A stretch of DNA of 40,429 nucleotides from a virus. The DNA lies in IMG/VR virus record IMGVR_UViG_3300008738_000007, positions 1 to 40,429 of that record. One strand, given 5' to 3'. Positions 2,626 to 40,429 of this stretch are shown piece by piece. The stretch's first letter is position 1; every line of letters starts with the position of its first letter. The position numbers and the translations under genes were made by a program. The notes under the pieces are model-generated. The model was not told the origin of the DNA. It worked only from the letters and a program-made list of their open reading frames with translations, and ran no database searches.

Positions 2626-3552
2626 TCACTGCCCGTAAGCAGTCTCCAGCATGATACTAGCCACACCAGCCATTTCAAGCCTTTGAGCAGGGGTCAAGTC
2701 AGCCGGGTCTTTGCCAACCCAATGCGCTGGATACTCAGGAACACTCACCCGACTCCCGAACATATCAACTAGTTGTTGGGCGGCGTTTCTCCCCGCCTCG
2801 TCCCGGTCAGTGAATGCCACGATGAAGTTGGGGCCTAAAATCCCGAGCAAATCTGCCTGGTGCTGCGACAACCTTGACCCCAGTAGAGCCACGGCCGGAA
2901 CACCCGCATCCCAACAGGCGATGCAGTCCAGTGACCCTTCAACTACTGCTAGAGAATCATGGTGCTGGGCAACGTGTGCGCCAAACAGGTGGCGGCTGAT
3001 CTTGAACCCCCGCGGGTAGAGGTAGCGCGGGTGGGCACCGTCATCCAACTGACGCCGGATAACCCCCACAACGCCGCCGTGCTGATTCCGCAGTGGGATA
3101 ACCGCATGGTTGCGGAGCGGGTCGTACCCCAGTTGGAACGCCCGCTGAACTTGCTCAGAGAAGCCCCTGGAGGCCCAGTAGTCGGTTTGATGGTCGAACC
3201 TGCCCAGCCACTCGTCCGGGTAGACGAGAGAGGCTCTGGGAGGCTCTGAGGCCAGTTCTGCCACCTCCTTCCTAAGCCGGGAGATGCGGTCGTCTTCTCG
3301 CTCTTTCGTGACGACCACATTCCCGACCTGAAGGTGCGCCGCAATGTCCGACACCGTGCCCTTCGCCCCACAGGCAAAGCAGATGAACACCCCGTCTTTT
3401 ACGTTGACGCTCAGCGATGGTGAGGTGTCGTTGTGAAAGGGGCAGAGGCACTGCCACTCAATACCGCTCCTAGCCCGAACATCAAGGTGCTTGGAAATAA
3501 ACCCCTCAGTCGGCGTTGGCACGGTCTTCGTCCATGAGGTCTTTGGCGTCAT
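2626..3552 (-). CDS. DnaG-type DNA primase (CHC2 zinc finger + Toprim)
   Basis: 308 aa from the ATG at 3552, chosen because GAGGAG precedes it; this overlaps the end of the helicase gene by 47 bases. The zinc-binding CHC2 module is at residues 35-61 (C35, C37, H40, C58, C61; CPFHNDTSPS and FICFACGAKG). A catalytic core follows, with the Toprim acid residues in VVEGSLD (E205) and FTDRDEAG (D249, D251). The length is short against cellular DnaG (about 600 aa) because the C-terminal helicase-interaction domain is absent. It would make RNA primers at the fork together with the DnaB-like helicase encoded just before it in the same leftward operon. A GTG at codon 11 is a possible alternative start. 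Confidence 0.88.
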   Translation of the reverse strand: MTPKTSWTKTVPTPTEGFISKHLDVRARSGIEWQCLCPFHNDTSPSLSVNVKDGVFICFACGAKGTVSDIAAHLQVGNVVVTKEREDDRISRLRKEVAELASEPPRASLVYPDEWLGRFDHQTDYWASRGFSEQVQRAFQLGYDPLRNHAVIPLRNQHGGVVGVIRRQLDDGAHPRYLYPRGFKISRHLFGAHVAQHHDSLAVVEGSLDCIACWDAGVPAVALLGSRLSQHQADLLGILGPNFIVAFTDRDEAGRNAAQQLVDMFGSRVSVPEYPAHWVGKDPADLTPAQRLEMAGVASIMLETAYGQ

Positions 3553-4777
3553 CGCCGTTGATCTCCTCAAACCGCCCGGTGTTCGGGGAGAACTCGTTGA
3601 ACCAAGCCTGCCCGTCCATTCCGTGCCGAAACTTGGCAAGTTTCATTTTGATGACACGCTGGCTCATCTGCCGCATCGTGACCACGGCATCAGCGTCCTG
3701 CCCAATCGCATCCGAAGCCGCCAAGTGCTCAGCCCCAGGAACATCATTGCCTATCGCCATGCGGTTGATTTGAGCCGCTGCAACGATGGGCACCTCGTAC
3801 CGCATGGCAATGCCCTTGATCTCACCTGAGAGTTCGGCCATGGCCCGCCAGTCGTCCCCGCCTGCGTTCATAAGCGTGAGGTAGTCGATGAACACGATGT
3901 CCGGCCGATTGCGCTCAATCTGAGCAGCGATGGATGACGGGCTGACTCGCCCCCTGGAAGTGTCATCAACCACAAGACGACCATCCAGTTTCCCGCTCAA
4001 CTCTTTCAAGAATCGCTTGTATGCCACAAGGTCAAAGTTCTTGCCGTGCATCAGGTCCATGGACTTGAACACTTCAGTTCCGTACTGGCTAGACAGGAAC
4101 GTGTGGCACCTCATGGCAATCTGTGCCCGTGACTGCTCTAAGGCATCGTATTGAACAACGGCTTCGCCGTACAGGGCTGCACAGGCCATACGAATCAGCG
4201 TCCATGTCTTGCCTTGCCCGAGGCGGGCAGCCACAATCCAGTAGTCGCCGGGCTGAGGGCCACCGGTTAGCAGGTCCAGTGTGGCAAAACCCGTAGGCAC
4301 CCCAGCCATACCACGGGCCTGCATCCGTTCGTAACGGCGAGCAACTTCTGAAAATGTCCCTTCCCAGTCGGAGATGATCTCACTTTCGTTTTGCCCGCCA
4401 TGAGCATCTAGTTGAATCGAAGCCAGGCTTTGGTAGGCAGAATCAAGAACCCCAGAAGGGTCTTCACTATCTTTTAGTCTTTCCAGAACGTCGTCAACAG
4501 TGTCGATCAAAGAGAACCTGATATGAGAGGCCCTCAGTTGGTTGATGGTGTATTCAACGTCATCTGATTTGAGAATAGTGAACCCAGGGAACCTGTCTCT
4601 AAAGAGAGTTTTGGAGGGGCACTTACGGTGCCTCTTTACATAAGAGTCAACCCACTCCCACTCATCTTGGTAGGAGTGGAACCAATGCTTTGTAACGCCA
4701 GAGCCTAGAGGGGTTACTACATCTCCTTGTCTGAGGACTGCTGAAAGAAACAGAACTTCATCTTTTCCAGACACCAC
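3506..4777 (-). CDS. Replicative DNA helicase, DnaB-like
   Basis: 423 aa from tandem GTG codons at 4777. A helical N-terminal half is followed by a RecA-type ATPase core: Walker A ARLGQGKT (residues 184-191), Walker B DIVFIDYLTLM (293-303), and DnaB-family elements VPTGFATLDLLTGGPQPGD just before Walker A and IVAAAQINR after Walker B. It would unwind the fork as a hexameric ring and recruit the primase that follows it. The start codon shares one base with the stop of the 98-aa gene upstream (TAGTG), so translation is probably coupled. The assignment is secure; loader is not identified in the window. Confidence 0.9.
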   Translation of the reverse strand: MVSGKDEVLFLSAVLRQGDVVTPLGSGVTKHWFHSYQDEWEWVDSYVKRHRKCPSKTLFRDRFPGFTILKSDDVEYTINQLRASHIRFSLIDTVDDVLERLKDSEDPSGVLDSAYQSLASIQLDAHGGQNESEIISDWEGTFSEVARRYERMQARGMAGVPTGFATLDLLTGGPQPGDYWIVAARLGQGKTWTLIRMACAALYGEAVVQYDALEQSRAQIAMRCHTFLSSQYGTEVFKSMDLMHGKNFDLVAYKRFLKELSGKLDGRLVVDDTSRGRVSPSSIAAQIERNRPDIVFIDYLTLMNAGGDDWRAMAELSGEIKGIAMRYEVPIVAAAQINRMAIGNDVPGAEHLAASDAIGQDADAVVTMRQMSQRVIKMKLAKFRHGMDGQAWFNEFSPNTGRFEEINGDDAKDLMDEDRANAD

Positions 4778-21614: not shown

Positions 21615-22124
21615 ATGATGATTGGGGTGCCAGAGGCCGTTGTGGTGGGAGTTGATCCTGCTTCTACAAGAGCAGCGTTTGTGGCTATCCATGAAGACGA
21701 GTTTCACCTTGCTGCCTATCCACGCTTGGGGCCAGCCGGTCCAATAGCCTGTGCCGCGGGGTGGGATGCCACACACGACTTTTTGGACTCGTTGCCATGG
21801 GATGCCAATATCCCCAGACATGCGTTTGTAGAGTGGCCGGTGTTGGGCCGAGGCGGGTTCCGTTCCACCATGGTGCAAGCCTTTACCTCCGGGGCCATAC
21901 AGGGTGCCCTCCACAACCGCGGGTGCTTCACGCATAGCGCCAATGTCTCATCATGGAAGAAGTCAGTCACCGGACGAGGCAACGCCACTAAGCCAGAGGT
22001 TGGCGCTGCCGTACAACTACGATGGCCTACTCTCCACGCCCGTGCAGGTGGCGATCAAGACCTCTATGACGCTGCCGCCATTGCCATCTACGGATGCTCT
22101 GTGGTGGGAGAGCAAGTGGCTTGA
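21615..22124 (+). CDS. RuvC-like Holliday-junction resolvase
   Basis: 169 aa with the RNase-H-fold order of RuvC: first Asp in VVVGVDPASTRAAFVAI (D14), Glu in HAFVEWPVLGRGG (E73), a basic region NVSSWKKSVTGRGNATKPEV, and terminal acidic residues in GGDQDLYDAAAIAIYG (D147, D149, D152). Resolves four-way junctions made during recombination and before packaging. The end overlaps the WhiB gene by about 59 bases in another frame. A second possible resolvase is at 20253; having both would be redundant or indicate different substrates. Confidence 0.78.
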   Translation: MMIGVPEAVVVGVDPASTRAAFVAIHEDEFHLAAYPRLGPAGPIACAAGWDATHDFLDSLPWDANIPRHAFVEWPVLGRGGFRSTMVQAFTSGAIQGALHNRGCFTHSANVSSWKKSVTGRGNATKPEVGAAVQLRWPTLHARAGGDQDLYDAAAIAIYGCSVVGEQVA

Positions 22125-22371
22125 CTATGCGGCGTGCAAAGGAAAGACAGACCTGTTTTTCCAGCACCGCTGTAGTACCAGATGCGACCAACACCCTTCT
22201 GGCTGTGATCGGTTACAGTGCGTTTGTGACGCCAAGGAAATCTGCGCCGCCTGCCCGGTTCTTGCCCATTGCCGCATCTGGTCTATTGAGGACAGCCTTC
22301 AGCATGGCATTGCAGGTGCCATGACTGAGCGGGAGCGCCTGCGTTTCAGGCAACAAAGGGAGCAGTTATGA
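22066..22371 (+). CDS. WhiB-family iron-sulfur transcription regulator with a cysteine-rich insertion
   Basis: 101 aa from ATG 22066; the exact start is uncertain. The four cluster cysteines are C24 (YAACKG), C60 and C63 (EICAACPV), C69 (LAHC), with the C-x2-C-x5-C spacing of WhiB, followed by GIAGAMTERERLRFR in the position of the usual G[VI]WGG turn and basic end; the Trp is absent. Between C24 and C60 there are five further cysteines (C36, C40, C47, C52, C54), which is unusual. Phage WhiB proteins such as mycobacteriophage TM4 gp49 act on host WhiB2 targets and affect septation and superinfection. Stop overlaps the ParB gene start (ATGA). The gene is strong evidence of an actinobacterial host. 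Confidence 0.88.
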   Translation: MTLPPLPSTDALWWESKWLDYAACKGKTDLFFQHRCSTRCDQHPSGCDRLQCVCDAKEICAACPVLAHCRIWSIEDSLQHGIAGAMTERERLRFRQQREQL

Positions 22372-23672
22372 CCGACGCCTTGTTCACTGAGACACGGACG
22401 GTGCCGCTGGAAGAACTCCAGCCATACGACAAGAACCCGCGCAAGGGCGATGTGCAAGCCATTGCTGAGTCACTGAAAGCCAACGGCCAGTTCAAGCCGA
22501 TTGTGGTGCAGAAAAGCACAAGCAAGATCCTCGCCGGAAACCACACCTACCAAGCCGCTCAACTGTTGGGGTGGGACACCATCGCCGTAGTCATGGTCGA
22601 TGTTGCTGATGATGAGGCGGCTCGCATTGTCCTGGCTGACAACCGAACCAGTGATTTTGCTGAGTATGACAACACGGTGTTGGCAGAACTCTTGTCAGGC
22701 TTGGACGATGTGGTGGGAACGGGCTACAACGCCAGCGATGTTGACGCACTCATGGCCACGATGGACGACACCTTGGGCGACATTGCGGCTACCTCACACG
22801 TTGTTAGAGAAGGGGCACTCCTGGGAGGCGACTCGTTGGCCGAGTTGCCAAACGCCAACCATGGTGACAATGGCACCGACGAAAGCGACGGTGAGGTTGA
22901 CCTAGAGGGAATCTTGACTCTGAAAGAGGACATGGTGTGGCCGGGGTATGGCGAGTGGGACATCCCGCTGCTACGGACGGACATGATGATTGAAGAACTC
23001 CCCCAGCCTCTGACGACCTGGGCGGGGAGTGCCACAAGAGACATGGAGTGGGACGGATACTGGCTCTACAACTGGGGCATCGACAGCACATCGGGAATGG
23101 ACGACCTCAGCAAAATCATGCTCTCCTTCTACACCTGGGATGAATACTTTGAATGCTGGTGGAACAACCCGAAGAAGTACTTGACCAAAACCATCAACTC
23201 TCAGATTGAGTACGCCATCACGCCCAACTACTCACAGGACGCCATGCCGCGTGCTCTGTCTCTGCACGCCTTGTTCCGTTCGCGGTGGATCGGGCGGTAC
23301 TTGCAAGAGGCCGGAGTCAGAGTCATGCCCGACTTGGAGATGAGAGCCGAGGACGACTTCATGGACATCGCCCTAGGGTCGCTACCTACCCCACTCACCT
23401 GGGCAAGCATTCAGGTTCAAAACATTGTGTCGCGCACTAGGACGAACGCCCATGACGAAGACGAGGCGCGCAAGTCCTGGGTAGAGATGTTGCGGAAGCA
23501 AGTTGCCAGAGCAGAGATCCAAAACCTGCTTGTCTACTGCCGCACTTCACGCTGGGACGAGGTGAGGCAGTGGCTACATGGTGTTGACGTTCACCTAGAG
23601 TTCTTGCCCACGCGCATGGAACTACTAGGAGCCTCATGGGAAGCCAGCCGACGAAACCCCAACCTCCTCTAA
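22368..23672 (+). CDS. ParB/Srx-type N-terminal domain fused to a DUF4417-like domain
   Basis: 434 aa, ATG in an ATGA overlap with AAAGGGAG upstream. Residues about 8-120 form a ParB-like nuclease domain: LQPYDKNPRKGDVQAIAESL, GQFKPIVVQ, GNHTYQAAQLLGW, VMVDVADDEAARIVLADNRT. After an acidic linker, residues about 235-350 match DUF4417: ILSFYTWDEYFECWW-like, NPKKYLTK, AITPNYSQDAMPRALSLHAL, FRSRWIGRYLQEAGVRVMPD. ParB domains of phage are often CTPases or DNA-end nucleases; DUF4417 has no known activity, so the fusion's role is open. Overlaps the ureohydrolase gene by 37 bases. Confidence 0.78.
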   Translation: MTDALFTETRTVPLEELQPYDKNPRKGDVQAIAESLKANGQFKPIVVQKSTSKILAGNHTYQAAQLLGWDTIAVVMVDVADDEAARIVLADNRTSDFAEYDNTVLAELLSGLDDVVGTGYNASDVDALMATMDDTLGDIAATSHVVREGALLGGDSLAELPNANHGDNGTDESDGEVDLEGILTLKEDMVWPGYGEWDIPLLRTDMMIEELPQPLTTWAGSATRDMEWDGYWLYNWGIDSTSGMDDLSKIMLSFYTWDEYFECWWNNPKKYLTKTINSQIEYAITPNYSQDAMPRALSLHALFRSRWIGRYLQEAGVRVMPDLEMRAEDDFMDIALGSLPTPLTWASIQVQNIVSRTRTNAHDEDEARKSWVEMLRKQVARAEIQNLLVYCRTSRWDEVRQWLHGVDVHLEFLPTRMELLGASWEASRRNPNLL

Positions 23673-24379
23673 TCTTGCTCGTCCCCTTCAGCCAGGGGAC
23701 CGGAACCAACCAGGGGCCGCACGCCATTCTGGCGACACGCAACGCCGAGGGTCTTTACCATCCACGAGTTGCTGAGGTGCCAGTGAACCATGCCAGCGCC
23801 ATACGGACGGCGCACCATGTAAGCCGGGCGGTTGGCGACTACGAGAACGTCATGGTGCTTGGAGGAGATCACTCTCTAACGTATGGGGTGCTGGAGGCAC
23901 GGGCGCAGCGTGAGGGGCCAGTCCACCTTGCTCTTTTTGATGCTCACCATGACCGGTACGACATCACCCACAGCCCTAGCCTCATGGACCATGGCAACTG
24001 GTTGAGGTTTGCTGATGGTGCAGGGCTGCTTTCGGGGATCACATGGTTCAACTATCGGGGTGCTCAGACCACCTGGGGGCATGACGCCATCCCTGACAGC
24101 GGGCCAGTCCATGTATCGGTAGACCTTGATGTACTGGCACCTGTTGAGATTGGCTGGGCAACTCCGTGTCCGGTGCTGGGTGGAGGAGCCATGGTGGAAG
24201 AACTGCTAGGTGCCATACGGGCGCTACCCCTCACTGATAGCCACACCGTCACCTCTGACCTTGTGGAGTACGACCCAACCGGTGACACCAACCGAGGCGC
24301 TGCTCGTGTCTGCTCGCTCATCATGGACGCCCTGCTTGCTCACCATGGAGATTTCGCTAGCCCGGAGGGCGTCACATAG
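23636..24379 (+). CDS. Arginase/agmatinase-family ureohydrolase
   Basis: 247 aa from ATG 23636 (TAGGAG upstream), overlapping the ParB fusion. The metal site of the ureohydrolase family is complete: GGDHS (H79), FDAHHDRYD (D102, H104, D106) and VSVDLDVLAP (D163, D165). Known members hydrolyse guanidino compounds (arginine, agmatine, guanidinobutyrate, formiminoglutamate) or, in histone-deacetylase relatives, amides. It is shorter than cellular enzymes (about 300 aa). The specificity loop cannot be read from sequence. A phage copy beside WhiB and ParB-DUF4417 might change host arginine/polyamine pools or act on a modified nucleobase or protein; that is speculation. Confidence 0.85.
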   Translation: MGSQPTKPQPPLILLVPFSQGTGTNQGPHAILATRNAEGLYHPRVAEVPVNHASAIRTAHHVSRAVGDYENVMVLGGDHSLTYGVLEARAQREGPVHLALFDAHHDRYDITHSPSLMDHGNWLRFADGAGLLSGITWFNYRGAQTTWGHDAIPDSGPVHVSVDLDVLAPVEIGWATPCPVLGGGAMVEELLGAIRALPLTDSHTVTSDLVEYDPTGDTNRGAARVCSLIMDALLAHHGDFASPEGVT

Positions 24380-29916: not shown

Positions 29917-30954
29917 GTGGCTGACTTCCAAGACAGTCTCAATGAAGCGTCCACAGTGGATGATCTACGCAGCACGATTGCGCGACTATCCCGCCAACTT
30001 CAAAAGGCAAAAGATCGGGGGGAGGAACTGGTCGAAGCCGTCTACCGGGCTGCCAGAGATGCCTCCTCAGGACTCACGATTCCCCCAGTAGCCGCACCAA
30101 AGAAAGACAGTCGCAAAAAGGGCGAACAGGTCGCCGTGGCAGTGCTGTCGGACTGGCAGTTGGGCAAGCAAACTCCGGGGTACAGCAGTGAAATCTGCGA
30201 GGAGCGGATTGAACGCTATGCCGACAAACTGGAAACGATTGTGGGGATGCACCGAGAGGCCATCCCGATCAAAACCCTGAAGGTCTACCTGCTGGGGGAC
30301 ATCGTAGAGGGGGAGATGATCTTCCCTGGCCAGGCGCACCTAATCGACTCGTCGCTCTACCAACAGATGACGGTTGACGGCCCACGCATCCTGTGCAACT
30401 TCTTGCGCCGTGCCCTGACGATGTTTGAGTCGGTTCATGTCGTCGGAGTGATCGGCAACCATGGTTCGCTGGGCGGGCGTGCCCGAAAGGATTACAACGG
30501 CGAGAGCAACGCAGACAGGATGCTCTACAACATCTGCCGTCAGATCATGGGTGGCGAGAAGCGGCTGTCTTGGTATGTGCCCTGGGAGAAAGACGAGCGG
30601 GCATGGTACGCGGTGGACCGCATCGGGGACCACGGCTTCCTGCTAGCCCATGGTGACCAGATCAGGGGAGGCGGGTTTGGGGGGTTTCCCTTTTACGGGC
30701 TGGCCAAGAAGACTTGGGGCTGGGCCGTTGGCGGCGTCCCTGAGGAGTTCAACGAGGTCTTGATCGGCCACTGGCACCAGCCGACAAGAGTTACCTTGAA
30801 CACCATTACTGCACGGGTAAACGGCAGCACGGAGAGTCACAACACATACGCTCAGGAGCAGTTGGCCGCAGTGGGACGCCCTTCGCAGTGGCTTCTCATG
30901 GTTCACCCTAAGCACGGGGTATCAGCCGAGTATTGTGTGTACTTGGACCACTAA
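29917..30954 (+). CDS. Calcineurin-like metallophosphoesterase
   Basis: 345 aa; GTG 29917 has GAGGAG eight bases upstream. After a 70-residue coiled coil, the five MPE motifs are: VLSDWQLGK (D79; Gln81 where the family has His), LLGDIVEGE (D128), IGNHG (N181, H182), LAHGD (H245, D247), IGHWHQPT (H285, H287). Substrates of the family range from nucleotides to DNA. It lies between terminase and portal, so a packaging-linked or DNA-end role is plausible; T4-like SbcD or a cyclic-nucleotide enzyme are also possible. Confidence 0.82.
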   Translation: MADFQDSLNEASTVDDLRSTIARLSRQLQKAKDRGEELVEAVYRAARDASSGLTIPPVAAPKKDSRKKGEQVAVAVLSDWQLGKQTPGYSSEICEERIERYADKLETIVGMHREAIPIKTLKVYLLGDIVEGEMIFPGQAHLIDSSLYQQMTVDGPRILCNFLRRALTMFESVHVVGVIGNHGSLGGRARKDYNGESNADRMLYNICRQIMGGEKRLSWYVPWEKDERAWYAVDRIGDHGFLLAHGDQIRGGGFGGFPFYGLAKKTWGWAVGGVPEEFNEVLIGHWHQPTRVTLNTITARVNGSTESHNTYAQEQLAAVGRPSQWLLMVHPKHGVSAEYCVYLDH

Positions 30955-30970
30955 GAAAAGGGCTGTGGAA

Positions 30971-31297
30971 GTGAAAAAGTTTGACTGGTTGAAGCGGCGA
31001 GCCGAACACGTTGCCAAGTTCAACCCCTATCACGATGAGCGTGGGAGGTTTACAACCGCCCGGAATGCGGTCACCACGGCTGGTTTTGAGGGAAGCGGCG
31101 GCCGTGGAGGAGTTGATCTGCCGAGTGACGTGGGCGACGGTCCGCGCCGTCATGGATCACCGCATGAACGACCAGCGCATCCCCCCGCGACAGTTCACCA
31201 CCGTCGCCCAGGTCCGCGCCATCCGAGCGAACCGATGAGGGTTCTCCGATCAGACGACGACGGCGAGGTCAAGGCCAAAGAGTTCTGGAAGGTCTGA
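30971..31297 (+). CDS. Small protein carrying copy 0 of the FNPYHDERGRFT motif, with a composite tail
   Basis: GTG 30971 gives MKKFDWLKRRAEHVA then KFNPYHDERGRFTTA and AGFEGSGGRGG, almost the same 35 residues that follow the MuF domain at 33734. After about residue 47 the frame loses coding character: third-base GC and codon choice move to another frame (31083-31238), where LREAAAVEELICRVTWATVR and RAVMDHRMNDQRI are read, and the original frame resumes in MRVLRSDDDGEVKAKEFWKV. This looks like a recombination junction inside a motif unit or a remnant of one. It lies between the metallophosphoesterase and the portal. Confidence 0.5.
   Translation: MKKFDWLKRRAEHVAKFNPYHDERGRFTTARNAVTTAGFEGSGGRGGVDLPSDVGDGPRRHGSPHERPAHPPATVHHRRPGPRHPSEPMRVLRSDDDGEVKAKEFWKV
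31016..31066 (+). repeat. FNPYHD motif, copy 0 (upstream of portal)
   Basis: KFNPYHDERGRFTTARN in the small protein, followed by AVTTAGFEG, which is also found after copy 1. The only copy outside the giant gene. Confidence 0.85.
31125..31238 (+). CDS. 37-aa frame inside the motif-0 gene, possibly a separate small protein
   Basis: GTG 31125 has GGAGGAG 12 bases upstream. Reads MTWATVRAVMDHRMNDQRIP and PRQFTTVAQVRAIRANR with strongly GC-rich third positions, unlike the overlapping frame. It ends at a TGA that overlaps an in-frame ATG of the first reading frame (ATGA). Either a real small gene or the inserted segment seen in another frame. Confidence 0.3.
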   Translation: MTWATVRAVMDHRMNDQRIPPRQFTTVAQVRAIRANR

Positions 31298-31397: not shown

Positions 31398-32855
31398 GTG
31401 CCTAGCCCAAACACTACCGGTGCCGATGGTGGCACTGGCCCAGCACGGTCTGGGTACGACGGCAAAGAGTTTGATCTAAAGTTCGACCCGTTTGATGAAA
31501 CGGGCCTCACAGGGCTTCGCCGCTCGGCAGGCTTTGTCACCGAGGAGTTCCTCCCCCAACTCGCCGGGTTTAGAGCCAACGAGGTCTACCGCGAGATGCG
31601 GGACAACGACCCCGTGGTAGGAGCCATTCTGTTCGCCATTGACCGGCTGGTGCGCCAGGTGGCGTGGCGAGTGCAGTCCAAGTCCAAGAAGCATGACGAC
31701 GAGATGGCCGCTGTTTTTGTCGATTCGTGTATGCACGACATGAGCCACTCTTGGGAAGACCTCATCTCAGAGGTTCTGTCCATGCTGGTGTTTGGGTGGT
31801 CATACCACGAGATTGTCTACAAGCACCGTAACGGCCCCAGTCAAGAAGACTCCAGCAAGCGCAGTCGGTTTGATGATGGTCGGGTGGGCTGGCGCAAGAT
31901 TCCCGTCCGTGCTCAGGAAACCCGCATTGAGTGGATTTTCGATGAGAAGGGTGGCATTTTGGGGATGCGCCAGTCGCCTCCCCCGCACTATCACCTTGTG
32001 GACATCCCCATGGAGAAGGCGCTTCTATTCCGCACCTCCACCAACAAGAACAACCCAGAGGGCAGGTCCATCCTTAGGACTGCGTACCGGCCGTACTACT
32101 TCAAGAAGCGGATTGAAGAAATCGAGGCCATTGGGATCGAACGTGATCTGGCTGGGTTCCCAGTTATGTACGTTGACCCTCAGATCATGCGGAGTGACGC
32201 TACGGATGGGCAAAAGTCGGTGTTCACCGACTACCAAGACATGGTGTCCAACATTCGCCGGGATCAGCAAGAAGGCGTGATTCTCCCGGCGATCTATGAC
32301 GAGAACGGGCACCAGTTGTACCGGCTGGAGTTGCTTTCGTCTGGCGGGTCCAGAGAGTTTGACACCAACACAGTGATTCAGCGGTACGACCAGCGCATTG
32401 CCACCTCTGTCCTGGCCGACTTCATTCTGCTGGGGCAGCAGCAGCACGGCAGTTTTGCGCTTTCAGTAGACAAGACCGACCTCTTTGCCACATCACTCAG
32501 AACGTGGCTGGAGATCATCAGGACCGTCTTCAACGAGTACGCCATTCCCCGCCTGTTCAAGTTGAACGGGTTCGACATGACCCGGCTCCCTACGCTGGAG
32601 TACGGGGACATTGAGACGCCGCCGCTGGGGGAGTTGGGCAACTACATTCAGGTGCTGGCAGGGGCGGGAGTGCCCCTGTTCCCAGACGACGAACTGGAGA
32701 ACTACCTCCGGCAAGTGGCAAGCCTCCCTGCTCGTCAACAGCGCACAGGCCAGGTTCCGGGTCAAAGTGTGCCAGGGCAGGGCAACGCCCGCTCTGCCGA
32801 AAAGCAACCGGAGCCTGTTGCCCAGCGGCAGCCCACACCCAACACTAAGGAGTAG
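31398..32855 (+). CDS. Portal protein, Mu gp29 / DUF935-like
   Basis: 485 aa, GTG 31398 with GGAG upstream. Conserved blocks: YREMRDNDPVVGAILFAIDR, WEDLISEVLSMLVFGWSYHE, ALLFRTSTNKNNPEGRSILR, YYFKKRIEEIEAIGIERDLA (part), and LEYGDIETPPLGELGNY near the end. This is the Mu-type portal family, which forms the dodecameric DNA gate at the head vertex. The next gene, three bases away, begins as MuF, which is the normal pairing in such phages. The final 40 residues are Gln/Pro-rich and disordered. Confidence 0.88.
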   Translation: MPSPNTTGADGGTGPARSGYDGKEFDLKFDPFDETGLTGLRRSAGFVTEEFLPQLAGFRANEVYREMRDNDPVVGAILFAIDRLVRQVAWRVQSKSKKHDDEMAAVFVDSCMHDMSHSWEDLISEVLSMLVFGWSYHEIVYKHRNGPSQEDSSKRSRFDDGRVGWRKIPVRAQETRIEWIFDEKGGILGMRQSPPPHYHLVDIPMEKALLFRTSTNKNNPEGRSILRTAYRPYYFKKRIEEIEAIGIERDLAGFPVMYVDPQIMRSDATDGQKSVFTDYQDMVSNIRRDQQEGVILPAIYDENGHQLYRLELLSSGGSREFDTNTVIQRYDQRIATSVLADFILLGQQQHGSFALSVDKTDLFATSLRTWLEIIRTVFNEYAIPRLFKLNGFDMTRLPTLEYGDIETPPLGELGNYIQVLAGAGVPLFPDDELENYLRQVASLPARQQRTGQVPGQSVPGQGNARSAEKQPEPVAQRQPTPNTKE

Positions 32856-32857
32856 CC

Positions 32858-35800
32858 ATGCCCCGGCGCTTTAGTGGGGCCGCACTCCTCCAGGCACTGT
32901 CGGCGTACTCCGACACTATGGAGCGGAAGGTGCGGCGCGCCTTCTTTGACGCGATCAAGCAGTTCTCCAGCACCGGAGATTTGCCCACCATGATGCGCCA
33001 ACTCCAGCAGGGCCAAATCGTGCCCGACGATTTGCCTGCTCGTATCGAACAGTTGTCCATGAATACGGACGAGATCGCCCGGCTGGTACAGCAAGCCGTG
33101 AAGGGCGCTGGCTCCATCACTGCCAAAGAAGTCGGGTTTGAGACGGCTTGGGATGTCACTCAGCCATCAGTCATCACTGTGGCACGAGATTTGGCAAACC
33201 GAACTCTTGTAGATGTCCAGTCAAACACGATGCGTACTCTCGCAGACACAGTTGAAGAAGCCATTGTCACAGGGATGCACCGGGATGAACTGGTGCGCCA
33301 GATTCGCCGCAATGTCGGGCTACTTCCACAGCACGCTGTGGCGGTCCAAAGGTATGAGCAAAACCTGCTGAACCAAGGGCAAGCGCCAAGCCAGGCAGCC
33401 AAGTTGTCTAACGGCTATGCCAACCGGCTCTTGTCGTATAGGGCCAAGATGGTTGCGCGCACCGAAGTGGCCAGAGCACGAAGCCACGGCCAGCAGATGT
33501 TCTGGGATCAGGCAGAGAAGCGACGGTTGCTCCCAGCCGATACACAGCGAGTCTGGATCACAGCCCAGGACGAGCGAACGTGTCCAGTGTGTGCTCCCAT
33601 GGACGGCGTGCTGGTCGGGCTACACCAGCCTTGGGCTACTGACACTGGCCCTGTGGATGTACCAACCGACGTTCACCCACAATGCCGGTGCGCTATGGGC
33701 CTGGTATTCCCAGGGATCACCAAGCACATTGTGAAGTTCAACCCCTATCACGATGAACTTGGGCGGTTCACGACCGCAGACAATACTGTGACTACTGCGG
33801 GGTTTGAGGGCAGGGGCGGCCGTGGGGGCGGCAGTGTGAGTGGTGACGCTTTTGCCGCCAACAGAGAGTTGGTTGTTGCTATGGCCATGCTGGGCGTGCA
33901 GATGAGCGGTCGGGAACTAGACCCGCTTGAAGAAAAGATGCTTGAAGAAGCACGCGAGGGCGACATAATCATATTTGATGGCAGCGAGGAGACTGCTGTT
34001 GGCAGCCTGTCCGATGACGGCGACGATGGTGTCGTCGCGCTCAACTTTAGAGTTGAGGACCGCGCAGAGATCAAGGATGGGGGTGCCGAATGGGTGGCTG
34101 GCTTTATGACTGACGCAGAAATAGAGGTGTGTGCGAGTCAGTGGGGTGACACTCTGAACAATGATGCGCTGGCCCTGGCAGAAGTAGTTGTTGCAGAACG
34201 CCACGATATGTGGGCGAAAACAGCAGGAGATAGCGACTCAAAATCGCTGGCCCTCCAGTTGGCCGCAGCGGAGATGCAAGAGTGGGACAGTGAGCAGATC
34301 GCCAACCGAGTGTTTCGTGGTCTAGACCCAGGCGGCATGGAAGTGGCTCGTGCCGCTGCCGATAAGGCAGTGTCACAAGTTGAGAAAGACCCCACGCCGT
34401 GGGCGCTAATGAGTAGCGCTGGGCAGGAAGAAGTTGTCAACCGGCACCTGCCTCCACAGGACAGCCTGGTCATGGCGTCCAACTGGATGCAGCCGGTGAC
34501 GCCACAGATTGCGGCCATGGCTCTGGTGGAGCATCGGTTTGCTGCGGCAGCCAACAAGGCTGTATTGGCAGCAGAACAGCGCGCTACACGCCACGACCTT
34601 CCTTGGGTAGTGGGCGATGCTAAAACAATCACGCTGTACCGCGGGGTGATGGTTGACAAGGAGCGAGTGGTCCACAGTCCGACCCATGTTGAGTACCGGC
34701 TGCCATCGGCCACCAAAGTCCGTAGTGAGTCGGCCCCACTGTCGTCATGGTCAGCGGTTAGGGCTGTTGCTGAAACATTTGCTGGCCTCAAAGGGGTGGT
34801 CCTAGAGGCAGAGGTGCCCATCAGTTCTATCGTGGGGCTAAGCACCAACGGGTTCGGCTGTATTTCAGAAGGCGAAGTCATTGTGAATGGCGACTCGTTT
34901 GATGCCATTGTGATGGGCGACGATCTTGAAAAGAGTGCAAGCCTTGGTGGCCCTGCTCCGGCTGGAGAGGTTCACAAAGCCATTCTGCCCATCAACCTTG
35001 ATGCCACGGATGAAAACCAAGACTGGCCGAAGCGGACACCTGACACTTACGAAGCACTGGGGATTTCGCTCAGGGTTGAAACTACCGGAAGTGGCGAACT
35101 GAACCCTGTGACCGGTATTGCCATGTCAGGGGCCGAGTTCGCTGACACGATGGCAGTCTTGTTCCGGGCGAGAGCGCCACGCATCGTCAAGTTCAAGCAG
35201 ATGTTTGGCAGCGGGCTTGAAGTCACAAAGGCGGGCTTTGCCACCCATGATGGGCCACTAAGCCTGGAGTCGCTGCCTGCCTATTCACGAGATTTGCGGG
35301 TAGTGCTAGGCAAAGAGTGTGCGAGAGCAGTGGCTGTTCAGGTCGCTGACTTTGATTGTGGAGAAGTGGTTCTGTACGGGTTGAGCCGAGGCCACACCCC
35401 AACTACACAGGCCGATCCAATGCAACGGGTGGTCAAGGTAGGCAACGACGCTTACTTGTCGCCGCTTGGCAAGTACAAGTTCACCCGCAAGCAGTGGTAC
35501 GAAGCCCAGCAGCGGACCTCACGCCAAGGTGGCGGGTCGTGGGGTGACTACACACCGCCCGACGCCATGGATAGGCGTGACGACCTTCAGTGGCGAAGCA
35601 AGTTGAGGAAGGGGGCTGCACAAGAAAACAAGTCGCGCCCGGCAGCAGTTCACAAGTTGATGCAACGGTTTGCTGCCCCTGTAACCAACACGGGCACTTG
35701 CCCCAAAGATGGCGAATCCATCTTGCAACTGGTGGAGCGCAATGGCCGCCCCACGCCAGTGGTCTACAGCGCAGTTACCAAGTTCAATCCCTATCACGAC

Positions 35801-38800
35801 GAACTGGGCAGGTTCACTACCGCGGACGCAGCAGTCACCACCAGTGGTAATGCTATGAGGGCCAACCGGGGAGTTGCCATTTCGATGGCTGAAGTATCAC
35901 TGGGCAAACTATCTGGTGCTGACAAGGCGTTGCTTAGAGACGCTCCTGCCGGTGCTGTTGAGTTTATTTCCGGTTGGGAGCCCGTTACTCGGGGCGTACA
36001 AACGCGTGGGGCGCAGGTTGAGGTTGTTGTCACTCGGCGCGAGCGTAGAGAAATCAAGCGGCGGGGCGCTAAGGCCATCGCTGATGAGATGACCGACGAC
36101 GAACGGGCGGCGTGTACGCAGGCCATGGCGGAGTTGTACGGAGAACTAGATCAAGGGACTTACGGCAACAGAAAGACCGGCTTTATTACAACATCAAACG
36201 CTCCTGAAAAGTTCGTGGCCAGGCAGCACAGCCAGTGGGCTGCCACTTCCAGTGGCAATCCACACGCACTTGCAATACAGTTGGCAGCAGCAGAGATGCA
36301 GGGTTGGGACAACGAACAGATTTCCAACCGGGTGTTTCGTGAAACTCCAAACGATGTGGTGGCTGCGGGTCGTGAGATAGCCAAGCAGGTAATCGCGAAC
36401 GCTGGGGGCAACACCGCGGGACTGCTTGACCACGAAACTTCTAGTGCAGCCATAAGAACGGTGGTGCAGGGTGACACACTTAGCCCTTACTTGAGCATTG
36501 CTGTCGCTGGCCCGGTTGTCGGTGCGCCACCAAGAGCGATAGGCACTGTGACTGCCCAAACCTTTATTTATAGTGAGTTGTTGGGGGCCGCTTACAAGGC
36601 GGTGCTAGCAGCCAACCAGCGGGTGAGCCAGAAGCGCCTGAAAGAAGCAGTTGGCGACACCCCCACTATCACCCTGTTCAGGGGTGTGTATACAACTGTC
36701 GCAAGTCTATTTGGTGATGAGTTTTACGGCGGCGGCGAGCAGGCTGTCACAGGGGGAAAGATCCGTAGTAAGTCGTCACCACTGTCGTCGTGGTCGGTGT
36801 CGCGCCCCACGGCACGGAAGTTTGCCGTGGGTTACGACCAAGAAGGAGTTGTATTACGGGCAGAGATACCAGTCAGTTCCATCGTTGGTGTGAGTTCACA
36901 GGGCTTCGGTTGCATTGTTGAAGGTGAGGTGGTTGTCAACGGCGACTCTTTCGTTGCCAAGGTGGACACTCAAGCCAGTGACATCACTAAGGGTGTGGCG
37001 GGGAGGCCAGCACCAGCCGGGAGCCTGAGGAAAGCAATCCCCACCATCAACCTTGATGCCACGGATGAAAACCAAGACTGGCCGAAGCGCACGCCAGACA
37101 CCTATGAGGCGCTGGGACTCCCGTTGCCGATTGTGAAGTTCAACCCATATCACGATGACAGAGGGCGCTTTACGACTGCCGCTAACAACACGACAGGCAG
37201 TCAGCGAGTGCCCGAACAGGGATTTGACGGGACGCCAGAGGGTCTTGTGAACGCGATCAAGCGCACCTTCCAAGACCACGGCTTCAGTCCGAGGCACAGC
37301 AAGTCAGCAGTGTCTGAGGCTGAGTATGTGAGTGTGGGCACTGAGACCCAGGACGTTACGGTCCGAGTGGCTGCCCATAGTCGTGAAATCCCCTATGACT
37401 CCACGATTGACGTGTGGGCCAACATCCCAAGGTACGACCGAATCGGTTTGGGCAAGCCGCGCTTTTCAACACAACACTGGACCATTGGAGTTAGAGATGC
37501 CTTGGGTCGTTTGGGCACCGCACCAAACAATGACCTCCAGCGGCTTGTTCAGGAAGTGGGCACCCCTAATGCCGCGGCTCAGCACGCTGAACTGAAGCAA
37601 AGAGAAGCCCGGTACTGGCAGCGCCGTGAAGACGACCGGCGTGCGGGCATGGCCGAGCATCTTCATAACACTGGCGAGACGTATATCGCAGACGAATGGG
37701 TGTATGACCGAGAACGCAACAAGGTGGTCACTAAGTTCAACCCCTACCATGACGAACTAGGCAGGTTCACCACTGCTCGTTATGCCGTTACGATTTCAGG
37801 GGGAAACCTCCCGCCGGTCGCTGGCTCTGAGGAACTCTGGAGCGCTCAAGGGCGTGAGTTGTTCAGAACGCCGCTAAGGAGCAAAGGCGCTTCGATAACG
37901 CAAGAGTCCGCTGGCGGCGAGGTCCAGTACACCATTCAATATGGTGACCTCCAGTTGGAGACACGGGCCGCTTCAGCCGAGGAGGCGCTTGGCCGGTTTG
38001 ACAACGAGTGGGTTTACTGGGAAGGCAACTATCGGCTGCGCCACGCTTCAGCAGCCATCGTAGGGCTGCCACCGCCAAAGTCTGTTGAGCATGTCACCGA
38101 TGCCCTTAGCGAGACAATTGCTACCGGCGACGCCAGTGCAATGCGTGAACGCGATGCGGCTGATGCTGTGACCCTAGACCGCCTTAGGGCTGGGGAGAAA
38201 AGAGATGACGCATGGCGTTGGTCGAGAAGTTATGGTGCCCAGACGACTGTTGACGAAGCAGTTGGGGGCGTTGTAGCCAGGGCATACGAAGCCATGAGGG
38301 CAGTTGGAGGGGCTGATGAAACCTCACCCTTGCTCCATCGTGGGATGTCTGATGTTGACCGTGCCTCTCCGCTGTTGTCTGCACCCATCGGCACCAAATA
38401 TGGGACTGCACTCACCGCATTTAGCCCTGACCCAAGCATGGCTATGCGGTTTACGCATAACGACAGGGAAAAGGGTGCCCCGGAAGTGCTAGTGGTCCTA
38501 AAGCCTGGGGCCAAGTCTTATGTGGGCGACACCGGTGCCCCACAGGTCCATCCCAACCCAGTGTGGGCACCCAACAAGGGGTGGCGCTTCGACGGTTCTA
38601 TTGAGCACATCACCCAGGGTGTGTTCAAGATCGTTGACCGCTTTCAGCCCAAGGGGGTTGACCCAGAGGTAGTCGGGTGGAAGGACTACCTAGAGCCAGG
38701 GCGAGGCCACAAGACTTATGCACCCGGAGAACAGACTCAGGGTGTTGAGTGGGTTGTTGTTGTCGAGCAGGTGGGGTCGTACTTGCCCAATCCAGACGGC

Positions 38801-40429
38801 ACAGTGATGTATGTAGAGAACGATAAGCCAAGTGGCCCACTGCCGTCCTCAAACTACGGGAACGAAGTGAACACTTTTGACGATGTTGCCAAGTTCAACC
38901 CCTACCATGATGAACTAGGGAGGTTTACGACTGCGGACAAAGACGTAACTGGGGTGGCCAGCGACCTTTACCAAGGTATGCACAAGCCATCCGCTGACAG
39001 CGCACCGCTCTACGACTTGCTGGACGACGACGGCTGGTTCCCTGACGATGTTTACACAAGCCCTAGCCTGTATATGTTTGGCGACCGAGCCATACAGCAG
39101 GAAACGCTGAGTGCTATTCGCCATGCGCGTGGGCGACCAGACGCTCTCGTCACGGTTTATAGGTCAGTCCCGCCGGGGACTACTGCGATCAACTCAGGAG
39201 ATTGGGTTGCGCTTTCACGCTCTTATGCCGAGCAGCACGGCCAGGACCGAGTATATGAATACTTTGACGCTGATGCAGTGTGGCCAGATGATGAAAGCGG
39301 GAAGGGGATGTGGGTGTCTTCCCGAGTGAACTGGGCAGTGCTTTCTGCCGAAGTTCCAGCCCACACTATTCGCAGTGGAGGCAATGACCTGATTGAGTGG
39401 GGATATTGGGGGGGGAAGATTGAGGCTGGGGGCATCAAGAAGTTCAACCCCTACCATGATGAACTGGGCAGGTTTACCACCGCCGACAACAATGTCACTG
39501 GGGCGGCAACAGCGTCATCGGATCAAGCCGGGGGAAGGCTGGCCGCTAGCCAAATCCTTAGCACCGCCCTGGGCTGGGGCCAAAGGGAAGCCGAACTGCT
39601 GGCTGCACATGGCCCTTCGCTGGCAGTGCGCTCATCCGTCACTTACACCGACTGGGTGCGAGAGCCTGGGGATCTCAGTGCGGGACTGACCTATACAGTT
39701 GAGTTGGACCTGAACGAACGTAACTCAAACTCCACTGCTGTTGTGGGCCTGTCAACGCGCACCAGATCAAGAGTCAAGGCCGAGGGCATTGCTAACACTG
39801 CCTTTGAAATGCGCCCGGACGAACTGGCCGCCGTCAACGAGATGTTCCTCGCTTGGGAGCCGGACTACTGGCTCACTGGGATGGAAGCCGCGGAAGCATT
39901 GGTGGAAGAAGTACACGGCCGCTGGTCGCAAACGGCCGGAGATCATTCCGAGGGTGCCATGGCACTCCAACTGGCAGCGGCCCAAGAGGCTGGCTGGTCT
40001 GATGAGGAGATCAGCAGCCGTGTGTTCTACGGCCTCAGCGACAACGACTACCAAAACGGTAAGGAGATAGCGGAGAGCGCGATCCTGCACAACTTGGGCA
40101 GCGTGGCCGATAGCATGTCACGCCCCATCAAGGCTTCTCAGGCTGTGAGGAACGCTTCCACCTTGCTGTTTGCCTCCTCTGACGAAAAGTTTGTTGCTCG
40201 TGTGATGACGTTGGCCCACATGAGCAGTGCTGCCAACAAGGCGTATCTGGCAGCCTCTAAGCGTCTTGCACAGGAAGCGATGAAAGATGTCGGAGGGCCA
40301 CAGCAAACGGTCACTCTCTACCGGGGGGTCCAAATACCCAAGAGCCGCTCGACGCCTTATTCTGAACTTGGCAGCAAGGTTGTCAACGCGTCATCGCCGC
40401 TTAGCAGTTGGTCATGGTCTTTGTCGGCA
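32858..40429 (+). CDS. Giant MuF polyprotein with multiple ADP-ribosyltransferase modules (3' partial)
   Basis: One frame stays open from ATG 32858 through 2524 codons to the window end. Residues 1-292 are a MuF minor head protein: MVARTEVARARSHG, ITAQDERTCPVCAPMDG, VHPQCRCAMG. KFNPYHDELGRFTTAD-type motifs then start at residues 293, 975, 1427, 1626, 2012 and 2195, dividing the protein into modules. Module 1 and 2 end in an ART fold: ITLYRG (R595) / ITLFRG (R1275), PLSSWS (S630-S632 / S1311-S1313), SEGEVIVNG (E671, E673) / VEGEVVVNG (E1355, E1357). Module 6 repeats it (VTLYRGV, PLSSWS) and is cut before ExE. Modules 1, 2 and 6 share a helical block (ALQLAAAEMQ...NRVFRG). Module 5 has VTVYRSVP, GDWVALSRSYAEQHG, EWGYW; module 4 has LLHRGMSD and ALTAFSPDPSMAMRF, a degenerate candidate; module 3 is unknown. 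T4 Alt shows that head-packaged ARTs can be injected; cargo delivery is an inference here. Confidence 0.9.
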   Translation, partial: MPRRFSGAALLQALSAYSDTMERKVRRAFFDAIKQFSSTGDLPTMMRQLQQGQIVPDDLPARIEQLSMNTDEIARLVQQAVKGAGSITAKEVGFETAWDVTQPSVITVARDLANRTLVDVQSNTMRTLADTVEEAIVTGMHRDELVRQIRRNVGLLPQHAVAVQRYEQNLLNQGQAPSQAAKLSNGYANRLLSYRAKMVARTEVARARSHGQQMFWDQAEKRRLLPADTQRVWITAQDERTCPVCAPMDGVLVGLHQPWATDTGPVDVPTDVHPQCRCAMGLVFPGITKHIVKFNPYHDELGRFTTADNTVTTAGFEGRGGRGGGSVSGDAFAANRELVVAMAMLGVQMSGRELDPLEEKMLEEAREGDIIIFDGSEETAVGSLSDDGDDGVVALNFRVEDRAEIKDGGAEWVAGFMTDAEIEVCASQWGDTLNNDALALAEVVVAERHDMWAKTAGDSDSKSLALQLAAAEMQEWDSEQIANRVFRGLDPGGMEVARAAADKAVSQVEKDPTPWALMSSAGQEEVVNRHLPPQDSLVMASNWMQPVTPQIAAMALVEHRFAAAANKAVLAAEQRATRHDLPWVVGDAKTITLYRGVMVDKERVVHSPTHVEYRLPSATKVRSESAPLSSWSAVRAVAETFAGLKGVVLEAEVPISSIVGLSTNGFGCISEGEVIVNGDSFDAIVMGDDLEKSASLGGPAPAGEVHKAILPINLDATDENQDWPKRTPDTYEALGISLRVETTGSGELNPVTGIAMSGAEFADTMAVLFRARAPRIVKFKQMFGSGLEVTKAGFATHDGPLSLESLPAYSRDLRVVLGKECARAVAVQVADFDCGEVVLYGLSRGHTPTTQADPMQRVVKVGNDAYLSPLGKYKFTRKQWYEAQQRTSRQGGGSWGDYTPPDAMDRRDDLQWRSKLRKGAAQENKSRPAAVHKLMQRFAAPVTNTGTCPKDGESILQLVERNGRPTPVVYSAVTKFNPYHDELGRFTTADAAVTTSGNAMRANRGVAISMAEVSLGKLSGADKALLRDAPAGAVEFISGWEPVTRGVQTRGAQVEVVVTRRERREIKRRGAKAIADEMTDDERAACTQAMAELYGELDQGTYGNRKTGFITTSNAPEKFVARQHSQWAATSSGNPHALAIQLAAAEMQGWDNEQISNRVFRETPNDVVAAGREIAKQVIANAGGNTAGLLDHETSSAAIRTVVQGDTLSPYLSIAVAGPVVGAPPRAIGTVTAQTFIYSELLGAAYKAVLAANQRVSQKRLKEAVGDTPTITLFRGVYTTVASLFGDEFYGGGEQAVTGGKIRSKSSPLSSWSVSRPTARKFAVGYDQEGVVLRAEIPVSSIVGVSSQGFGCIVEGEVVVNGDSFVAKVDTQASDITKGVAGRPAPAGSLRKAIPTINLDATDENQDWPKRTPDTYEALGLPLPIVKFNPYHDDRGRFTTAANNTTGSQRVPEQGFDGTPEGLVNAIKRTFQDHGFSPRHSKSAVSEAEYVSVGTETQDVTVRVAAHSREIPYDSTIDVWANIPRYDRIGLGKPRFSTQHWTIGVRDALGRLGTAPNNDLQRLVQEVGTPNAAAQHAELKQREARYWQRREDDRRAGMAEHLHNTGETYIADEWVYDRERNKVVTKFNPYHDELGRFTTARYAVTISGGNLPPVAGSEELWSAQGRELFRTPLRSKGASITQESAGGEVQYTIQYGDLQLETRAASAEEALGRFDNEWVYWEGNYRLRHASAAIVGLPPPKSVEHVTDALSETIATGDASAMRERDAADAVTLDRLRAGEKRDDAWRWSRSYGAQTTVDEAVGGVVARAYEAMRAVGGADETSPLLHRGMSDVDRASPLLSAPIGTKYGTALTAFSPDPSMAMRFTHNDREKGAPEVLVVLKPGAKSYVGDTGAPQVHPNPVWAPNKGWRFDGSIEHITQGVFKIVDRFQPKGVDPEVVGWKDYLEPGRGHKTYAPGEQTQGVEWVVVVEQVGSYLPNPDGTVMYVENDKPSGPLPSSNYGNEVNTFDDVAKFNPYHDELGRFTTADKDVTGVASDLYQGMHKPSADSAPLYDLLDDDGWFPDDVYTSPSLYMFGDRAIQQETLSAIRHARGRPDALVTVYRSVPPGTTAINSGDWVALSRSYAEQHGQDRVYEYFDADAVWPDDESGKGMWVSSRVNWAVLSAEVPAHTIRSGGNDLIEWGYWGGKIEAGGIKKFNPYHDELGRFTTADNNVTGAATASSDQAGGRLAASQILSTALGWGQREAELLAAHGPSLAVRSSVTYTDWVREPGDLSAGLTYTVELDLNERNSNSTAVVGLSTRTRSRVKAEGIANTAFEMRPDELAAVNEMFLAWEPDYWLTGMEAAEALVEEVHGRWSQTAGDHSEGAMALQLAAAQEAGWSDEEISSRVFYGLSDNDYQNGKEIAESAILHNLGSVADSMSRPIKASQAVRNASTLLFASSDEKFVARVMTLAHMSSAANKAYLAASKRLAQEAMKDVGGPQQTVTLYRGVQIPKSRSTPYSELGSKVVNASSPLSSWSWSLSA
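33734..33784 (+). repeat. FNPYHD motif, copy 1
   Basis: KFNPYHDELGRFTTADN directly after the MuF domain. Followed by TVTTAGFEGRGGRGGG, shared with copy 0. Confidence 0.9.
34991..35034 (+). repeat. 44-base identical duplication, first copy
   Basis: Codes for INLDATDENQDWPKR after ART module 1. Bases 34991-35034 are identical to 37046-37089; the translated identity continues to TPDTYEALG in both although the bases then diverge. Confidence 0.85.
35780..35830 (+). repeat. FNPYHD motif, copy 2
   Basis: KFNPYHDELGRFTTADA, opening module 2 (second ART module). AVTT follows as in copies 0 and 1. Confidence 0.9.
37046..37089 (+). repeat. 44-base identical duplication, second copy
   Basis: Same position relative to ART module 2 as the first copy to ART module 1. 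Here FNPYHD copy 3 follows within about 30 residues, while in module 1 another 300 residues intervene. Confidence 0.85.
37136..37186 (+). repeat. FNPYHD motif, copy 3
   Basis: KFNPYHDDRGRFTTAAN, the most divergent copy inside the giant gene; it opens the unknown 199-residue module 3. Confidence 0.9.
37733..37783 (+). repeat. FNPYHD motif, copy 4
   Basis: KFNPYHDELGRFTTARY, opening module 4 with the degenerate ART-like end. Confidence 0.9.
38891..38941 (+). repeat. FNPYHD motif, copy 5
   Basis: KFNPYHDELGRFTTADK, opening the compact module 5 (183 residues), then DVTGVAS. Confidence 0.9.
39440..39490 (+). repeat. FNPYHD motif, copy 6
   Basis: KFNPYHDELGRFTTADN, then NVTGAAT, which resembles the DVTGVAS after copy 5. 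It opens module 6, the third ART module. Confidence 0.9.

Follow-up and report, generated by a model that had tools for sequence, protein, structure and literature searches.

In polymorphic toxins of the CDI and Rhs types, a conserved peptide marks the point at which cassettes are exchanged, and partial gene copies with alternative cassettes are found nearby. Closer to phage heads are the MuF polymorphic toxins (Jamet 2017, PMC5576092; Bxa, PMC11699363), encoded in the head gene cluster, in which an N-terminal MuF domain is followed by C-terminal toxin domains, including ADP-ribosyltransferases (ARTs); fusions of ARTs to MuF are known from another study as well (PMC9503650). Polyvalent proteins carry several effector domains on one virion-linked polypeptide, and Iyer 2017 (PMC5512222) describes a prophage-derived one with 12 ART copies; multi-ART cases and portal, MuF and protease fusions are known among them. 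Another precedent is provided by the internal proteins of T4 and by DarB of P1: a short N-terminal capsid targeting sequence is found on many unrelated cargo proteins and acts independently of the cargo, and in T4 the signal is also processed (PMC9024508). Fusions of MuF, portal and protease domains to effectors are already described, and so are multi-ART proteins; a shared linear tag uniting such fusions was not found in the literature, of which our coverage was partial.

The locus described here lies in a window, i.e. the whole stretch of DNA analysed, which corresponds to an entire virus record of 40.4 kb (40,429 nucleotides). An ORF reading of this window gives 2524 codons with zero stops from position 32858 to position 40429, and AAGGAG stands a little ahead of the initial ATG. 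The preliminary description had noticed this open frame and had proposed to look for its stop in sequence from beyond the window. The frame proved to be complete, at 2594 codons, in a contig of 58 kb from the same phage. Two contigs, L009 (IMGVR 3300009109_000006), which is 99.994% identical to the window over 17.6 kb, and L008, identical at 100% over 11.6 kb, continue the frame beyond the window end and both supply its stop. Since separate contigs agree, a sequencing error is unlikely to be the source of the long frame, and this explanation was rejected. The GC content by codon position is coding-like and similar across all the modules of the chain. The features of the region are the following.

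31010..31150, plus strand: copy of the tag (see below) within a short ORF, 30935-31297, flanked by the phosphoesterase gene and the portal gene
31398..32855, plus strand: Mu-type portal protein, directly upstream of the chain (PF06074, 2.9e-33)
32858 to beyond 40429 (window end), plus strand: the 2594-aa chain frame, with its stop at L009:17785
32858..33736, plus strand: MuF head-morphogenesis domain, aa 1-293 (PF04233, 1.9e-12, over aa 195-280; phrog_3517, 1.8e-32)
33737..35782, plus strand: module 1, aa 294-975; tag, helical block, probable ART, then a second domain
34625-34648, 34730-34753 and 34865-34891, plus strand: Arg, PLSSWS and ExE landmarks of module 1
35015..35068, plus strand: second box, NQDWPKRTPDTYEALG, copy in module 1
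35783..37138, plus strand: module 2, aa 976-1427; tag, helical block, probable ART
36665-36688, 36773-36802 and 36917-36937, plus strand: Arg, PLSSWS and ExE landmarks of module 2
37070..37123, plus strand: second box, NQDWPKRTPDTYEALG, copy ending module 2 directly 5′ of the module 3 tag
37139..37735, plus strand: module 3, aa 1428-1626; tag FNPYHDDRGRFTTA, then a further domain
37736..38893, plus strand: module 4, aa 1627-2012; tag and ART-like landmarks LHRGMS and EHITQG
38894..39442, plus strand: module 5, aa 2013-2195; tag and phrog_2579 C-terminal domain (6.9e-31)
39443..40429, plus strand, ending outside the window at L009:17785: module 6, aa 2196-2594; tag, helical block, probable ART
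40307-40330 and 40391-40420, plus strand: Arg and PLSSWS landmarks of module 6, the ExE lying past the window end

The main point, which the preliminary description missed, is a shared tag: a short peptide, KFNPYHDELGRF, opens each of the six modules. In the chain it reads KFNPYHD[ED][LR]GRFTTA, at aa 294, 976, 1428, 1627, 2013 and 2196, and its consensus is [IVL]xKFNPxHDxxGRF[AST]. The phage has 12 copies, six of them within the chain. One is in the short ORF upstream of the portal gene, which has no recognised domain past the tag and is possibly a remnant; one opens a DUF3626-like protein of 491 aa (PF12294, 1.4e-5, below the cut-off), the gene of which overlaps the 3′ end of the chain by 4 bases; two are behind the XkdF maturation protease (PF14550, 5.4e-21); and two are in the ORF that follows the XkdF gene, the first module of which has a ParB-like stretch, as judged by eye. 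The tag is therefore no peculiarity of MuF; a number of genes of the head region share it. An ORF of 83 aa (L009:19254-19505) has a 4-base overlap with the end of the DUF3626-like gene and may encode an immunity protein, or nothing. Elsewhere in the window, positions 21904-22371 encode a WhiB-family regulator (PF02467, 2.5e-11), which suggests an actinobacterial host, positions 22368-23672 a DUF4417 joined to a ParB_N domain, and positions 23636-24379 an arginase-family protein (PF00491, 1.2e-22).

As to the modules themselves, the MuF domain expected at the N terminus was recognised by both Pfam and PHROG, and modules 1, 2 and 6, previously proposed to be paralogues with Arg, SxS and ExE landmarks, are indeed mutual paralogues (E about 1e-51 to 1e-23) with intact landmarks: TITLYRGV, TITLFRGV and TVTLYRGV, respectively, for the Arg, PLSSWS in all three, and SEGEV, VEGEV and SEGEV for the ExE, that of module 6 being present 3′ of the window. 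The R-S-E order (Arg, S-x-S/T, E-x-E) is found in these three modules and in their relatives, and the R, the SS and the second E are invariant across seven sequences (the three paralogues and four relatives). The AlphaFold2 model of module 2 (pLDDT 73.7, pTM 0.79) has the strand order expected for an ART. A fold search of the PDB with this model gave nothing below 1e-3; in a viral-library fold search its matches include a 1390-aa head morphogenesis protein and, weakly, named ARTs. Profile comparison (hhalign) of the three domains with members of ADPrib_exo_Tox put the landmarks in the right register, at a non-significant score, sequence searches of the PDB, for which the chain and the ART profile served as queries, gave nothing significant, and Pfam has no toxin-domain match for modules 1, 2 and 6 despite the landmarks. 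Taken with their setting, the landmarks make it very probable that these three modules are ARTs. The weaker landmarks of module 4 and of module 5 (VTVYRS and IEWGY in the latter) suggest that these two are probably ARTs as well, with more reserve. Relatives of module 4 are found in L017 (two copies) and in a tagged module of L028; the relative of module 5 is a tagged module in L028. An AlphaFold2 model of modules 4-5 (pLDDT 39.8) was set aside. For module 3, zero Pfam or PHROG matches were obtained. The chain of ART modules put forward in the preliminary description is thus probable as regards modules 1, 2 and 6, less firmly so as regards modules 4 and 5, and on present evidence does not extend to module 3 or to the second half of module 1, both unassigned; landmarks and context together support a head protein with several probable ARTs.

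The view that such a chain is not a standard description was only partly right: the 12-ART polyvalent protein of PMC5512222 and the MuF-ART fusions of PMC9503650 are known. As in polyvalent proteins, three ART-landmark paralogues and other modules are on one polypeptide, encoded between portal and protease genes. The hub domains MPTase, ArdC, SNF2 and HYD-type ART have no Pfam match in any module of the chain, and the chain differs by its shared linear tag at every junction, no such tag having been found in the passages of that source consulted here. Compared with MuF polymorphic toxins, it has six modules instead of one, with a tag before each, and the same tag is also present on portal and protease fusions. 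One could nevertheless regard the chain as an ordinary MuF toxin that tandem duplication has enlarged, in the absence of any general system of tags: modules 1, 2 and 6 are duplicates and MuF-ART fusions have precedents (PMC5576092, PMC9503650, PMC11699363). But the same tag opens modules 3, 4 and 5, for which no relation to modules 1, 2 and 6 was detectable at the sensitivity of our search, it recurs in portal and protease fusions and in separate genes of many phages, and no small immunity ORF directly follows the chain, where the next gene is the overlapping one of 491 aa and the 83-aa ORF comes only after it. We consider this explanation hardly credible. A different mode of growth is suggested by the second box, NQDWPKRTPDTYEALG: since it is found in module 1, at the end of module 2 and again at the start of the next, separate cargo gene, ahead of its tag, the chain seems to have grown by joining genes that had been tagged one by one.

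To see how far the tag extends, IMG/VR was scanned with a degenerate DNA pattern for KFNP[YN]HDxxGRF, the same peptide reversed serving as control. The pattern was found in 108 stretches and the reversed peptide in 0; MuF control loci (0.89 Mb) contained 0 tags. Among 166 copies less than 70% identical over 42 aa, conservation (in %) is K100 F90 N100 P91 H100 D91 G100 R95 F100, the invariance of K, N, H, G and F being in part imposed by the search pattern; a hydrophobic residue is favoured at position -2 and a Gly/Ser/Ala-rich stretch follows the tag, neither of which was required by the search. The segment upstream of the first tag, in 37 non-redundant cases, contains according to Pfam a portal in 15, XkdF in 6, MuF in 5 and S78 in 1. 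Beyond the tag, 147 non-redundant modules were named by Pfam where possible; most have no Pfam match, and the named ones include ADPrib_exo_Tox (8), Zeta (3), ART-PolyVal (3), DUF3626 (3) and ART (2), as well as a glutamine deamidase (listed as Gln amidase), a CdiA-type RNase, a colicin E5 RNase, a 2′-5′ RNA ligase-like domain, a topoisomerase IB, a DNA ligase and others. Most of the genes that adjoin a tagged gene encode portal, MuF, capsid, protease or terminase. Tagged prophage-like stretches come from Alphaproteobacteria, Clostridia, Sphaerochaeta and Chloroflexota; the complete phage MW202897 has the tag in its portal and in its S78 protease, and the thaumarchaeal provirus Nvie-Pro1 (L186:3786-5802) has it in the portal, with an overlapping next gene that contains a Rel/Spo-like domain. 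Since it recurs at comparable junctions in phages that are not related, and in many of them, the peptide looks like a general head-cargo tag. The Kovu ‘capsid maturation protease’, found through a BLAST match extending past MuF, contains no tag. No paper with the peptide string turned up in the literature, within a partial coverage and bearing in mind that such strings are rarely printed whole.

Tags are not confined to junctions. Out of 130 distinct first tags, 71 are at most 75 codons from the start of the frame, and several are at most 10; stand-alone cargo proteins start with MFASVF-KFNPYHDERGRF or MSLFSIL-KFNPYHD, for instance. This recalls the capsid targeting sequences of T4 and P1, which are likewise short peptides near the N terminus of unrelated head-linked cargo; the tag differs from them in sequence and can also be internal and repeated. 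Other chains exist too: at least 1893 codons of L150 encode, in this order, MuF, tag, ART, a variant of the tag (GNPHHNRLGQF), a second ART and a further variant, and G038 has a frame of 1806 aa with four tags, two of them directly before PF03496 ARTs, plus a separate tagged ART gene. The chain of the window thus belongs to a recurring kind.

The tag also behaves as a point of module exchange. In eleven related portals, identity is about 0.75 until some ten residues 5′ of the tag and about 0.25-0.3 after it; the portals of L025, L027, L029 and L040 are 91-94% identical and their modules have no detectable similarity. Overall, 157 of 198 pairs related upstream (pairs that are not independent) have no similarity past the tag. 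A homologous upstream part with an unrelated module beyond is what defines a junction marker. Contig 3300049216_000573 (L049, L110) has, besides a complete portal that carries one module, two portal fragments that are about 90-92% identical to it, each with the tag and a different module; by analogy with polymorphic toxins, such fragments are possible spare cassettes. A portal fragment about 90% identical to the full portal, again with the tag and a different module, is present in contig 3300049216_000582 (L037). The likeness to the CDI and Rhs markers, a conserved peptide at the exchange point and partial copies nearby, goes with a difference: the tag is not in a secreted protein, it is on several head proteins and on stand-alone cargo.

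It could then be argued that the peptide is merely a recombination scar, kept as a homology block for cassette exchange, like the junctions of polymorphic toxins, and of no use to the protein, given that modules swap cleanly, exactly at the tag, and that partial portal copies with other modules occur in the same phage (L049, L074, L110). Comparison of tag copies within one polypeptide (24 polypeptides, 58 copies) gave pS 0.746, pN 0.087 and pN/pS 0.117, values that are blind to lost copies and in which pN is somewhat lowered by the pattern-based selection of sequences; for the tags of the window chain, which was picked without the pattern, pS is 0.76 and pN 0.039. Most synonymous sites differ and the peptide is kept, but a DNA homology block needs the reverse, and the tag is kept also on stand-alone cargo with no upstream part. 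A mere scar is accordingly very unlikely, and the internal copies look conserved by selection, to judge from these sequences, for the peptide and not for the DNA. Still, tagged genes could have been fused into the polyprotein only recently, which would leave its internal tags too young to have decayed.

A further clue is the company kept by the tag. XkdF (PF14550, E ≤ 1e-3) was found in 31 of 49 tag records, 26 of these being over the cut-off, and in two of 41 control records, picked by a MuF pattern, i.e. a different motif, and containing PF04233 in 36 cases; the Fisher test gives p = 3e-9, to be taken as a guide and an optimistic one, since the tag records are fragments and partly related. 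A first control scan, with a terminase pattern, gave 6 contigs and was replaced by the MuF one. Four other tag records have an S78 protease in place of XkdF, and 14 of the 49, many of them fragments, have neither, so that XkdF may not be required. In at least one ORF (L030/G012, of 956 aa), the protease domain is between two tags. In L012 (reverse strand, at about 3146-4019) and in L009 (19527 onwards), the conserved XkdF-type tail, EISLVTRPANQLSKVVLYK, stands at the head of a scaffold-like gene of its own, with tagged cargo between it and the protease domain; a comparable split (LDIERVDAVDKPATGRRFVLIK) is seen in L144.

On balance, the explanation that we regard as rather probable, reading from sequence and context, is that the 2594-aa protein is a head-borne effector chain on a MuF anchor and that the peptide is both a portable head-cargo tag and an effector junction. 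The tag and its Gly/Ser/Ala-rich linker would mark proteins loaded into the procapsid and, at the same time, the site at which a further effector cassette can be attached: near the N terminus in stand-alone cargo, and as an internal junction either after a portal, MuF or protease domain or from one cargo domain to the next. Cargo would be admitted through recognition of the tag, probably by the scaffold or the XkdF-type maturation protease. The protease may also cut the chain at internal tags, releasing single effectors; these would enter the next host along with the DNA, and targets in that host would then be modified by the ARTs. Tagging, protease recognition, cutting, injection and enzymatic activity are all inferred here.

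The main rival is docking without cutting: a short hairpin formed by the tag would bind scaffold, portal or capsid from inside, and the chain would be injected or retained whole, a fate already proposed for other polyvalent proteins. The conserved aromatic and turn residues and the variable length of DxxG in FNPxHDxxGRF suit a hairpin, separate cargo has the tag near its N terminus, and some tag records have no detected protease. Docking poorly explains, however, why a chain that MuF, portal or protease already anchors should keep its internal copies, and why the link with XkdF is so strong; we hold it to be unlikely. It is because of these redundant copies and of the XkdF link that we favour a processing role, and cutting of the chain at the tag would, as we see it, have a nearly even chance of being right. 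Somewhat more doubtful is the broader proposal that tailed viruses, bacterial and archaeal alike, use the tag as a general loading and processing code: any protein with the tag would enter the procapsid and be cut at the tag by the XkdF-type protease, and one polyprotein would so deliver a set of separate effectors together with the DNA.

It is difficult to foresee which proteins of a phage are carried in its head and reach the inside of the host. The tag would allow head cargo to be listed straight from sequence, domains of unknown function included. It links the loading of effectors with one maturation protease in particular, by which the loading and processing of polyvalent proteins becomes testable, and it could serve for loading reporter proteins into phage heads. 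One arrangement may be added: in a Chloroflexota prophage-like stretch (L144:4827-7028), a single frame has an ART-like domain followed by XkdF, and a box in it, INVDADVRNADWTKQSWDLP, resembles INLDATDENQDWPKRT of the window.
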